A stretch of DNA of 64,000 nt, from NCBI RefSeq assembly GCF_000485905.1, contig NC_022664.1, positions 1-64,000 of the forward strand. The letters are read 5' to 3'. Below, piece after piece: positions 29,058-33,031 of the stretch (its first letter is position 1; the number at the start of each line of letters is the position of its first letter). The notes under the pieces are model-generated. The model worked only from the letters and a program-made list of their open reading frames with translations. It had not been told where the DNA came from and searched no databases. The stretch is from Spiribacter curvatus (GTDB lineage Bacteria; Pseudomonadota; Gammaproteobacteria; Nitrococcales; Nitrococcaceae). Both the position numbers and the translations under genes were made by a program.

Positions 29058-29732
29058 ATGGTCGAGCAGCAGCAGCTGGAAACCGTGGAAACCGGCGCTC
29101 AGGATGCCCAATACAGTGTGATCTGGCTCCACGGACTGGGCGCCAGTGGCCACGACTTCGAGCCGATTGTCCCGCAGCTGGGGCTGGAGGCGCCGGATAC
29201 GGTGCGATTCGTCTTCCCGCATGCCCCGGCGCAGCCGGTGACCCTGAACGCCGGGATGGTCATGCCCTCCTGGTACGACATCTACGGATTGGTGCCTGGC
29301 ACGCCACAGGATGAGCCGGGCCTTGATCGGGCCGCGGGCTGGATCGAGGCACTGATCGAGCGCGAGGCAAGCCGTGGCGTGCCACCCGAGCGGCTGGTGC
29401 TGGCCGGTTTTTCGCAGGGCGGGGCGCTCGCCCTGCATACCGGGCTCCGCTATGCCTCCGGCCTGGCCGGGATCATGGGGCTCTCCACCTATCTGCCGCT
29501 GGCCGATCACCTCTCTCAGGCCCATGCCGCCGCCAATCGCGATACGCCAGTCTTCCTCGCCCATGGCCATCATGACCCGGTGCTCGCCTATCAACTGGGT
29601 ACCGACTCCCGGGACGCCCTGGCGGGTCTCGGCTACCCCGTGGAATGGCACGACTACCCTATGGAGCACCAGGTCTGTATGCAGGAGATCAATGACATCG
29701 GCGGATGGCTGCGCCGAGTGCTCCCGCGCTAA
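29058..29732 (+). CDS. Carboxylesterase/phospholipase (alpha/beta hydrolase, EstB type)
   Basis: The 224-residue serine hydrolase belongs to the small carboxylesterase / acyl-protein thioesterase-like family. It shows the oxyanion region [17 protein letters not shown], the nucleophile elbow GFSQGG, the acid in AHGHHDPVL and the His in DYPMEHQVC. The start at 29058 follows GAGGAAAG and avoids overlap with the divergent lptM. There is no signal peptide, so it is cytoplasmic. It resembles Pseudomonas esterases that hydrolyse short-chain esters. The physiological substrate is unknown. The stop overlaps the convergent argH stop by 4 bp. Confidence 0.9.
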
Positions 29733-31132
29733 CCGGTCCGGCCGCTGCCGAGCCGCTCCCTGGCAGCGGCCACCTGACGCCGGACCTGGGCCGGTGCCGT
29801 CCCGCCGGTGTGGTCGCGCGCCGCCAGCGAGCCATCAAGGGTCAGTACCTCGAAGACATCCTCGCCGATGGCCGTGGAGAAGCCCTGCAGTTCCGTCAGT
29901 GACATCTCCGCGAGATCCCGTCCCTCGGCGACGCCATGAGCCACTGCCTTGCCGACGATCGCGTGGGCATCCCGGAAGGCCACGCCCTGGCGTACCAGGT
30001 AGTCCGCAAGATCGGTCGCTGTGGCGAACCCCTCGCGGGCGGCGGCCCGCGTCCGGTCGCGGTTGACCGTCAGTGCCGGAACCATGTCAGCGAATGCGCG
30101 CAGGCTGTCGCGAAGCGCATCGGCGGCGTCGAACAGCGGTTCCTTGTCTTCCTGGTTGTCACGGTTGTAGGCGAGCGGCTGCCCCTTCATCAGGGTCAGC
30201 AGTGCATGCAGGGCGCCATGGACCCGGGCGCTCTTACCGCGCACCAATTCCGCGACATCCGGGTTCTTTTTCTGCGGCATGATCGAACTGCCGGTACAGA
30301 ACCGATCGGGCAGATCGATAAACCCGGTGAGCGGCGACGCCCAGATCACCAGTTCTTCGGCCATCCGCGACAGATGGGTCATGGTGAGTGCGGCGGCGGA
30401 GACGAACTCGATGGCGAAGTCCCGATCCGAGACGGCATCGAGGGAGTTGCGGGTGGGTGCGTCAAAACCCAGCGCCGCACAGGTCTGGTCACGGTCGATG
30501 GGGAAGGTCGTGCCGGCCAGGGCCGCCGATCCCAGCGGCATCTGGTTAACGCGTTCGCGCGCATCCCGCAGGCGCGCCTCGTCGCGCACCAGCATTTCGT
30601 ACCAGGCCAGCATGTGGTGCCCGAAACTCACCGGCTGGGCGACCTGCAGGTGGGTGAAACCGGGCATGACGGTGTCCGCCTCGCGCTCGGCGAGATCGAC
30701 AAGCCCGCGCTGGAAGCGGCGCAGCAGCGTGATATGGGTGTCGATGACCGTGCGCAGCCACAGACGGATATCGGTGGCGATCTGATCGTTGCGCGAGCGC
30801 CCGGTGTGCAGGCGCTTGCCAGCCTCGCCGATGCGCTCGGTCAGCCGCGCCTCGATGTTCATATGGACATCCTCGAGGGCCGGATCCCAGGGAAAGCCGC
30901 CCGCCTCGATCTCCGCTTCAATCGCATCCAGGCCGGCGTCGATCGCCGCTGCATCGTCGGCACTGATCACGCCGCAGTCGGCGAGCATCCGGGCATGGGC
31001 GCGGGAGCCGCGTATATCCTCCTGATAGAGGCGTCGGTCGTAGTGTTCGGAGGCGCTGAAGGCCGCCACGAAGGCGTCCGTGGCTTCGGTGAAGCGCCCG
31101 CTCCAGAGACCCTTGGCGTCAGACTCGCTCAT
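29729..31132 (-). CDS. argH: Argininosuccinate lyase
   Basis: ArgH splits argininosuccinate into arginine and fumarate, the last step of arginine synthesis. The 467-residue chain has the fumarase/aspartase superfamily signature [12 protein letters not shown], with the catalytic Ser, plus [13 protein letters not shown] and [13 protein letters not shown]. The start at 31132 gives the family N-terminus KGLWSGRF; another ATG lies two codons upstream, and a long open extension beyond that was rejected. A TATAAT promoter is just upstream. Gene order argH/algR/hemC matches Pseudomonas. Confidence 0.97.
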
Positions 31133-31162
31133 GCCCATGCATCCCGTTCGAATGAGCGCGGC

Positions 31163-31171
31163 ATTATAGCA
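31163..31171 (-). promoter_or_regulatory. Extended -10 promoter of argH
   Basis: The minus strand reads TGCTATAAT, an exact TATAAT hexamer with the extended TGn element, about 30 bases before the argH start. No good -35 is visible, as allowed for extended -10 promoters. Confidence 0.6.
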
Positions 31172-31284
31172 GCCGGTCGGCCGAATGCGCCGGATGCCCG
31201 GTCTGTGAACCGGTTGGCGGTGTCCGTTGCCGGGCTTTTGCATGCTCGACCCTCCATTCGATGACGCCCCAGGAGGGAATAGCA

Positions 31285-32025
31285 ATGATGAAGATCGTGA
31301 TTGCCTGCGAGCAGCCCGCACTGCGACAGCGACTGGCGGGGCTGGCGGCGACCAGCGCCGGGTGCTGTGTGGCGGCCGTCCTCGAGACACCCGCCGAGGC
31401 ACCGGTCAGCCATGGTCGTGATCCAGTGGACGTGGTGGTGCTCGGTGTGCGTGACGAGACCCACCTCGCCGTCGCGGTGGCGCTCGCCAATACCACCCCG
31501 GCGCCGGCGATTCTGCTGGCCAGTGAGCTCGCCGATCCGATCGTACCGCGGCTTGAGGAAAGCGGTGTGGACTATGTCGTTGACACCGCTCAGCCGACCC
31601 GTTTCGCCGCCGCCCTGCAGGCGGCACGCCCGCTGGGGGCGGGTCAGATCGCGCGGCTCCAGGCCCCTGGCGCCGGGGATGAGCGCCGCCATATCCTCTG
31701 CCGGCGGCGCAATGGCCTCAGCCTGATCCCGGTGGATGACGTGCGCTGCTTCGTGGCCGATCACAAGTACGTCACGGTCCAGCATGACGATGGCGAGGAT
31801 CTGATCGAGGAGTCCCTGTGTCGCCTTGAGGCCGAGTTCGGTCCGCGCTTCCTGCGCGTGCATCGCAGTGCGCTGGTGGCCCGCGATGCACTCCGTGGAC
31901 TGGAGAAGGATCTCGATGGTCAGACGCGGGCGCTGGTCGATGGCAGTGATGATCCGCTGCCGGTCAGCCGGCGCCGTCTGCCCACCGTCCGACGCTGGAT
32001 CAGGACGGCCGCCACACCGGGCTGA
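31285..32025 (+). CDS. LytTR-family transcriptional regulator, AlgR-like with degenerate receiver
   Basis: The 246-residue protein has a C-terminal LytTR DNA-binding domain (about 140-240; [43 protein letters not shown]) very like Pseudomonas AlgR. It also shares the AlgR place between argH and hemC. The N-terminal 120 residues are receiver-like, but the acidic pair reads Ala7-Cys8, the phosphoacceptor position is Gly54 (VVVLGVRDE), and the conserved Lys is replaced by Asp (DYVVDTAQP). It therefore cannot be phosphorylated in the usual way. The sensor gene algZ/fimS, normally beside it, is absent. AGGAGGG precedes the ATG. The targets are unknown. Confidence 0.87.
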
Positions 32026-32107
32026 TGGTTTGCCTCACGGCCGTCAGGCGGTATCGTTGCAGCTCATCGCAACTGGCCGTCACGGTCGTTTTCAGGCATC
32101 CGCATTC

Positions 32108-33031
32108 ATGTCCATCACGCACCTCCGCATCGCCACCCGCCGCAGTCCGCTTGCCGTCTGGCAGGCTGAACATGTCGCTGACCGTCTGCGGGCGCGATAC
32201 CCGGATCTGAACGTCGAACTGGTGCGCCTTTCAACGCGGGGCGATGAGATCACCGATCGCCCGCTGATGGCGGTGGGCGGCAAGGCGCTGTTCGTCAAGG
32301 CACTCGAGGAGGGAATGCTCGCCGGCAAGGCCGATATCGCCGTTCACTCCATGAAGGATGTCCCCGCGGTCGTGCCAGAGGCGTTCCGCCTGCCGGTCAT
32401 CCTCGCGCGCGAGGATCCTTTCGATGCGGTGGTTTCACGGCGCTATACGGATATCGCCGAGCTCCCTGTGGGTGGCTGTGTAGGCACGGCCAGCCTGCGC
32501 CGCGAGTGCCAGATCCGCGCTCGGCGACCGGATCTGGCGGTAGAGTCGCTGCGCGGCAATGTGCAGACCCGCCTGGGCAAACTCGATGCGGGGCAATTCG
32601 ACGCCATTGTACTGGCGGCATCCGGATTGCGGCGGCTGGGCATGGCCGAACAGATCACCCGGGTGATGCCGCCGGAGGAGAGCCTGCCGGCGGTGGGCCA
32701 GGGGGCACTGGGGATCGAGTGCCGAGCCGACGACCCCGAGGTGGCGGCGCTGATCCAGGGGCTCGACGATACCGATACCCACGATCGGGTCGCGGCGGAA
32801 CGGGCGGTCAATTCGCGTCTCGAGGGAAGCTGCCATGTGCCGCTGGCCGCCTATGCACAGCTCGAGGGCGATGAGCTCTGGCTCAGGGGGCTGGTGGCGA
32901 GTCGCGATGGGCGCCGCGTCCTGCGGGCCGAGGGCCGCTCGCCACGCTCGGCGGGGCCGGCGCTGGGGCATGCCGTCGCCGAGGACCTGCTTGCTCAGGG
33001 GGCCGGCGAAATCCTCGCCGAAATCGAGTGA
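32108..33031 (+). CDS. hemC: Hydroxymethylbilane synthase (porphobilinogen deaminase)
   Basis: HemC polymerises four porphobilinogens into hydroxymethylbilane in haem and sirohaem synthesis. The 307-residue chain shows RIATRRSPLAVWQAEHV, IAVHSMKDVPA, GTASLRRECQI and the cofactor-binding Cys in EGSCHVPLAAYA. The start at 32108 gives the usual N-terminus; open sequence upstream lies within the regulator gene in another frame. It overlaps hemD by 4 bp in a hemC-hemD-hemX-hemY operon. Confidence 0.97.
   Translation: MSITHLRIATRRSPLAVWQAEHVADRLRARYPDLNVELVRLSTRGDEITDRPLMAVGGKALFVKALEEGMLAGKADIAVHSMKDVPAVVPEAFRLPVILAREDPFDAVVSRRYTDIAELPVGGCVGTASLRRECQIRARRPDLAVESLRGNVQTRLGKLDAGQFDAIVLAASGLRRLGMAEQITRVMPPEESLPAVGQGALGIECRADDPEVAALIQGLDDTDTHDRVAAERAVNSRLEGSCHVPLAAYAQLEGDELWLRGLVASRDGRRVLRAEGRSPRSAGPALGHAVAEDLLAQGAGEILAEIE

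Follow-up and report, generated by a model that had tools for sequence, protein, structure and literature searches.

AlgR of Spiribacter curvatus looks like an orphan pseudo-receiver regulator and may be controlled mainly through its own transcription

How a response regulator is controlled when both its phosphorylation chemistry and its partner kinase are missing is the question raised by one open reading frame (ORF) of Spiribacter curvatus. The window analysed was the first 64,000 nucleotides of contig NC_022664.1, the single contig of a genome of 1,926,631 bases that is 99.73% complete. Within it, positions 31285 to 32025 (+ strand) encode an orphan response regulator of 246 amino acids, made up of a pseudo-receiver and a LytTR DNA-binding domain.

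The LytTR domain, which is strongly conserved, occupies residues 134-240 (31684..32004, + strand; Pfam match to residues 146-239). The product scores 61.8 bits against PF04397 (LytTR; cut-off 22.6) and in a whole-genome profile search this ORF gave the sole LytTR match. Its neighbours are the divergent argH (29729..31132, - strand, start at 31132) and, downstream, hemC (32108..33031, + strand), and these two genes flank algR in all 14 loci from the genus. In sister genera argH is visible at seven of eight algR loci, on the far side of algZ, while the eighth stretch shows none. Over its length the protein is 40 to 48% identical to the eight sister-genus AlgR proteins. By position and full-length similarity the ORF is an AlgR orthologue, in agreement with a sequence-only reading of this DNA, which had named it AlgR from the LytTR domain and the argH-hemC location. 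Membership of the BtsR family was rejected, as the score against NCBIfam NF008677 (44.4 bits) is far below the cut-off of 246.

The argH-algR gap is 143 to 181 bases long in 13 of the 14 genus genomes. In G015 (locus L015) it extends to 1,106 bases and contains no AlgZ; the extra sequence, between argH and a conserved element that stays adjoining algR, holds a reverse-strand ORF which by eye resembles a Vgb/SMP-30-type secreted protein. In genome G005 an additional LytTR match, incomplete and interrupted by a stop, lies about 1.4 kb downstream of algR, a short way ahead of hemC (L024, C36:25736-25945); it may be what is left of a duplicate of algR. In G022 a second regulator of the LytTR type is accompanied at short distance by a PF06580 kinase of its own (C9; L025 and L034).

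The receiver (residues 2-118; 31288..31638, + strand) is predicted to have a (βα)5 fold and has lost the residues of canonical receiver chemistry. In alignment with sister-genus AlgRs, Cys8-Glu9 (31306..31311, + strand) replaces the acidic pair DD, Gly54 (31444..31446, + strand) replaces the phospho-acceptor Asp and Asp100 (31582..31584, + strand) replaces the conserved Lys, with Ser80 (31522..31524, + strand) at the conserved Thr/Ser position. The substitutions of Asp54 and of the Lys had been called correctly from the single sequence. The acidic pair had been given as Ala-Cys, which is one position off: Ala7 aligns with the Val preceding the pair, and Glu therefore sits at the second acidic position. 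As a single protein, the algR product has no match to PF00072 even at E values up to 1.

Aligning orthologues, the check proposed with the sequence-only reading, revealed that these changes are shared. The phospho-Asp position holds Gly in 12 of the 14 genus AlgRs and His in two; the first acidic position, Cys in 12 and Ser in two; the second, Glu in 11 and Arg, Ser or Ala in the other three; and the Lys position, Asp or Glu in 12 and His in two. The Thr/Ser position is occupied by Ser (four), Thr (four), Cys (three), Ala (two) or Gly (one), and two residues are missing from the β3-α3 loop in 12 of the 14. The pocket is canonical in 8/8 sister-genus AlgRs. It is also canonical at 77/77 non-Spiribacter loci in a wider survey of the best 80 of 577 loci found with two LytTR peptide patterns, a choice by which the survey favours conserved LytTR domains. 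Of these 80, L035-L037 repeat genus genomes and L038-L040 repeat sister-genus genomes, so that 74 of the 77 are new. In the tree, a branch with 100/100 support separates the 14 genus AlgRs from the others; their inner placement is unsure because long branches meet there, as the tool itself warned. Loss of the pocket is genus-wide, as judged from all 14 genomes examined, and is no accident of one strain. The alignments support the view that the receiver is unable to carry out canonical phospho-Asp chemistry.

The kinase has gone as well. A profile search for PF06580, the family of AlgZ/FimS, gave no match anywhere in the S. curvatus genome, which was the second check proposed. The family was absent from all 14 genus genomes and present in eight of nine other members of the family Nitrococcaceae; the ninth, G007, is fragmented and yielded neither an AlgR match nor a PF06580 kinase. 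Five of the 14 genus genomes are less than 90% complete, and the remaining nine are also without PF06580. At the level of the locus, algZ lies beside algR in 8/8 sister-genus loci vs 0/14 genus loci. The sequence-only reading had noted that the kinase gene usually next door is missing and had proposed that kinase and phosphorylation chemistry were lost together; at the level of the genus this is true, 14/14 for both.

Loss of the adjacent kinase gene alone was considered as the cause of receiver decay and rejected. Among the best 80 of 577 survey loci, algZ was detected at 59 of the 77 non-Spiribacter loci; at the remaining 18 there is no algZ in the stretch examined, and the receivers are intact. 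These 18 loci (L041, L043, L052, L060, L063, L068, L071, L072, L074, L075, L080, L082, L087, L090, L092, L107, L108 and L110) belong to what we take to be Lysobacteraceae. Genomes were searched for 11 of them, and all 11 carry PF06580 kinases somewhere. Receiver decay therefore goes with genome-wide absence of the kinase family and not with mere separation of the two genes.

Receiver domains gave 13 matches in the S. curvatus genome and HATPase_c gave 12, not all of the latter being kinases. For the first two Spiribacter genomes the 2013 genome paper reports two two-component systems, fewer than the signalling matches found here (PMC3832224). With as many as 12 HATPase_c matches, and with further Asp/Glu residues following Gly54 in the loop, another kinase might be imagined to phosphorylate an alternative residue of the receiver. 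However, phospho-Asp and Lys are both gone, the β3-α3 loop is shortened and the PF06580 family is absent, and we consider phosphorylation of this kind very improbable.

An input of the pathway is also missing. PilY1 is a type IV pilus protein. It was found (PF05567) in 0/14 genus genomes vs 9/9 others. In Pseudomonas aeruginosa, PilY1 is reported to prevent AlgZ/R signalling (PMC13001225). Since PilY1, PF06580 and the receiver pocket are each lost in 14/14, input, kinase and receiver chemistry are all absent from the same genus. The 2013 paper describes Spiribacter genomes as streamlined, without motility and with few regulators (PMC3832224).

Is the receiver a relic? Mean pairwise identity within the genus is 49% for the receiver and 79% for the LytTR domain, vs 74% for both domains in relatives. 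Rates were estimated by a simple Nei-Gojobori calculation for pairs with LytTR dS < 1.6 (53/91 in the genus, 24/28 outside), many dS values being near saturation. Receiver dN/dS in the genus was 0.07 to 0.55, below 1 in all 52 valued pairs (53 listed), and LytTR dN/dS was 0.016 to 0.235. Among the listed pairs, receiver dN exceeded LytTR dN by 1.2- to 5.4-fold in the genus vs a ratio of 0.7- to 2.3-fold outside. By these comparisons the LytTR domain is shown to be held under strong selection, and the receiver is under purifying selection that is looser than that on LytTR. Genus algR copies have no stop inside the match (14 genomes), and their length is conserved.

The predicted structure is in keeping with a retained fold. 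AlphaFold2, run on a mixed alignment of 34 of the 80 survey loci plus the S. curvatus protein, gave a mean pLDDT of 92 and a pTM of 0.58. When run with four Spiribacter sequences only, it gave receiver blocks with pLDDT of 76 to 92 and the same strand-helix order, and LytTR fell to 40 to 65. Foldseek with the full-length model returned ComE at a TM of only about 0.36, a low value because the two domains sit differently; searched per domain, it returned LytTR and receiver structures with TM by target length mostly 0.65 to 0.82 (single-domain entries). A profile of 22 AlgRs, eight of which are normal receivers, matches solved receivers, and phmmer with the single AlgR protein gave no match to solved structures at 0.001. 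Identity, dN/dS and fold prediction together indicate a receiver that looks folded and constrained yet relieved of its chemistry.

These data bear on the simplest alternative, that the receiver is just decaying, leaving AlgR as no more than a LytTR DNA-binding protein whose N-terminal part is scaffold or on the way to loss. The faster evolution of the receiver than of LytTR in the genus, the loop deletion and the failure of PF00072 to find the domain are what such decay would leave. Yet every valued pair listed has dN/dS below 1, length is conserved with no stop inside the match in 14 genomes, and a fold is predicted from Spiribacter sequences alone, so that plain decay appears quite unlikely.

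Another possibility is that the old pocket (Cys8, Glu9, Ser80 and Asp/Glu100) has become a sensor, in which a metal, an oxidant or a small ligand switches DNA binding. Residues in the main clade are non-random, with Cys in 12/12, Gly in 12/12, Asp or Glu at the Lys position in 12/12 and Glu after the Cys in 9/12, and pseudo-receivers under redox or ligand control do exist, such as RitR, HP1021 and JadR1 (PMC12632262). However, the two basal members carry Ser, Glu, His and His, so the same sensor site is not common to the genus. Even in the main clade, Glu9 is replaced by Arg, Ser or Ala in 3/12 and residue 80 varies between Ser, Thr, Cys and Gly, and the excess of non-synonymous change in the receiver over LytTR (53 listed pairs) also argues against a conserved site. 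A sensor pocket is therefore regarded as unlikely.

If phosphorylation no longer sets the activity of AlgR, the sequence upstream of the gene is of particular interest. A 16-bp element, TGTGAACCGGTTGGCG (31204..31219, + strand), a candidate CRP/Vfr-type activator site, precedes algR in 14/14 genus genomes and is the sole strongly conserved block of the argH-algR gap; TGTGAAC, one T and GCG are invariant in all 14. Across these genomes the element pattern occurs at 21 places, 14 of which are the algR site (the reversed pattern occurs at three), and in the 64-kb window it occurs once, before algR. TGTGAAC was not seen in 27 argH-side stretches of relatives (270 bases each; two genomes contributed twice). 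A -10-like hexamer, CATGCT (31241..31246, + strand), follows 21 nt after the element. This spacing is kept in 13 of the 14 genomes (22 nt in one), and the hexamer reads CATnCT in 11, CAAGCT in two and CATATT in one. If the conserved hexamer is the -10, the element spans -49 to -34 and is centred at -41.5, the position expected of a class II activator. A sigma-70 promoter scan of 30900-32300, a stretch that includes the sites before algR and before hemC, returned none at threshold. The same scan gave two terminator-like hairpins at 31214-31235 (0.4 expected), which span the last bases of the element and the spacer after it, a spacer that is poorly conserved.

The element matches the published Vfr core at 10 to 12 of 14 positions, with shuffle P values of 0 to 0.03 per genome (14 genomes; 300 single-base shuffles of a 26-base stretch in each), values that flatter the match because the comparison was chosen after TGTGA had been noticed. 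As a CRP site, one half is invariant and the other is poor (TGGCG for TCACA). The S. curvatus genome encodes a CRP equivalog (NF008732, 282 bits, cut-off 266; named model, searched in this genome only), and each of the 14 genus genomes has one match to the PF00211 cyclase. At least four PF13545 (Crp-type) matches occur in each of the 14 as well, a search that is unspecific because all 14 control genomes also match. The algZ promoter of P. aeruginosa, located in the gap between argH and algZ, is activated directly by Vfr (PMC8787478), and CRP control of the same gap may therefore have been inherited and re-sited in Spiribacter. The 16-bp element is probably read by CRP/Vfr, judging from these matches, and could alternatively bind a regulator other than CRP or AlgR.

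Perfect TGTGA-N6-TCACA palindromes are rare in the genus, with nine places in 7/14 genomes (one for the reversed control). Near-identical ones, TGTGAACGAARTCACA, occur at L144 (G000:C1:1858895) and L147 (G014:C1:1825953), where they lie close to a shared three-gene module that by eye encodes MarR-like, nucleotidyltransferase and HEPN-like proteins. Because they lie near this nucleotidyltransferase/HEPN module, they say nothing about algR.

The element might instead be an autoregulation site through which AlgR sets its own level. There is one conserved site per genome before algR, and in L010 and L012 the element holds CCGTTTGGC, which agrees with the AlgR consensus at 7 of 9 positions; the shuffle P for the consensus is 0.02 to 0.05 in three genomes (L005, L010 and L012), and 8-of-9 matches occur elsewhere in the gap in L006, L012 and L013, at differing places. 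In 11 of the 14 genomes, however, the match of the element to CCGTTCGTC is no better than shuffles (P 0.22 to 0.39), whereas the match to the Vfr core beats nearly all shuffles in 14/14 (P ≤ 0.03). Autoregulation from this site is thus doubtful.

Control of the adjacent hem genes, and so of haem supply through hemC/hemD, had been suggested by the sequence-only reading. In its favour, hemC follows algR in 14/14 genomes, and P. aeruginosa transcribes algZR together with hemCD and expresses less hemC when algZR is disrupted (PMC5790918). However, a shared transcript could by itself account for the P. aeruginosa observations. The algR-hemC gap of 82 bases contains a conserved promoter-like pair, TTTGCC-N17-TATCGT (32029..32057, + strand; below the scan threshold), in which TATnGT with a 17-base spacer is present in 14/14 genus genomes and the first hexamer is TTTGCn in 12/14. 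Because of this predicted pair, hemC can probably be expressed on its own. The 16-bp element that precedes algR is not found before hemC in the 64-kb window, and the algR-hemC gap has no AlgR-consensus site with one mismatch or fewer; the nearest match, with one mismatch, lies inside hemC at 32288. In the whole window such matches are at chance level (23 vs 24.6 expected), and no AlgR target was found among them. The suggestion is accordingly not supported, and control of haem synthesis by AlgR is improbable; on present sequence data AlgR appears tied to hemC by old neighbourhood alone, nothing further having been found.

The explanation we prefer, with somewhat more confidence than doubt, is that Spiribacter AlgR is an orphan pseudo-receiver regulator that has lost its kinase, is competent without phosphorylation and has its activity set mainly by its own transcription. 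Genome streamlining and loss of PilY1 would have made the phosphorylation circuit useless, after which it was lost. AlgR would have been kept because at least one target of the unphosphorylated protein still mattered; in P. aeruginosa, AlgR acts at several targets without being phosphorylated (PMC5790918, PMC4064291). The pseudo-receiver may have a structural role or support dimerisation, and so keep AlgR competent without phosphorylation. Activity would then be set by the amount of AlgR made, via an activator-dependent promoter whose 16-bp site is probably read by CRP/Vfr, and regulation of hemC by AlgR would be unnecessary, given the promoter-like site of hemC itself. The constitutive or ligand control proposed by the sequence-only reading appears to be the right class, and the conserved upstream element favours control through synthesis. 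A combined scheme, in which the phosphorylation circuit was swapped for a transcription-level circuit by gain of a cAMP-CRP site while the main-clade pocket (Cys8, Glu9 and Asp/Glu100) became a metal, redox or ligand site, seems rather improbable.

Compared with known systems, the protein resembles P. aeruginosa AlgR of the AlgZR pair in its LytTR output domain and its argH/hemC neighbourhood, and the argH-side promoter region is under CRP/Vfr control in that species (PMC8787478). Unlike P. aeruginosa, Spiribacter has no AlgZ, phospho-Asp, Lys or PilY1, and algR directly follows the promoter region. In having a receiver fold (here predicted) without the chemistry, no partner kinase and, presumably, activity when unphosphorylated, it is like the atypical orphan regulators ChxR, HP1043, GlnR and RitR (PMC12632262). 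It differs from the reviewed pseudo-receivers in its LytTR output and in that the ancestral working type persists in sister genera. With RitR it shares an Asp-less receiver, orphan status and a Cys of interest; the RitR Cys is in the linker (PMC12632262), whereas Cys8 of Spiribacter is at the acidic-pair position and any redox role for it is hypothetical. AlgR by descent, but without a PF06580 partner or the phospho-Asp and Lys of the AlgZR two-component system, the protein thus appears to belong with the orphan pseudo-receiver regulators, which are a known type.

In word searches, neither AlgR nor LytTR turned up in the main text of a 2025 review (PMC12632262) or of the 2015 survey of aspartate-less receivers. 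Searches of the open-licence literature for Spiribacter algR, pseudo-receiver LytTR proteins and aspartate-less receivers gave, among the matches listed, no paper whose title or opening abstract concerned this AlgR; the single match to Spiribacter with algR deals with a soybean metagenome. The 2025 review describes as a mystery how pseudo-receivers are turned on and off (PMC12632262). In Spiribacter, a pseudo-receiver can be compared with sister-genus relatives that are still canonical and have the same gene neighbours, and both the lost kinase and the lost input protein are identified. The order and the consequences of the loss of phosphorylation are therefore directly testable in an environmental halophile, and AlgR may be a case in which a two-component system has been rewired in nature so that control is exerted through synthesis.
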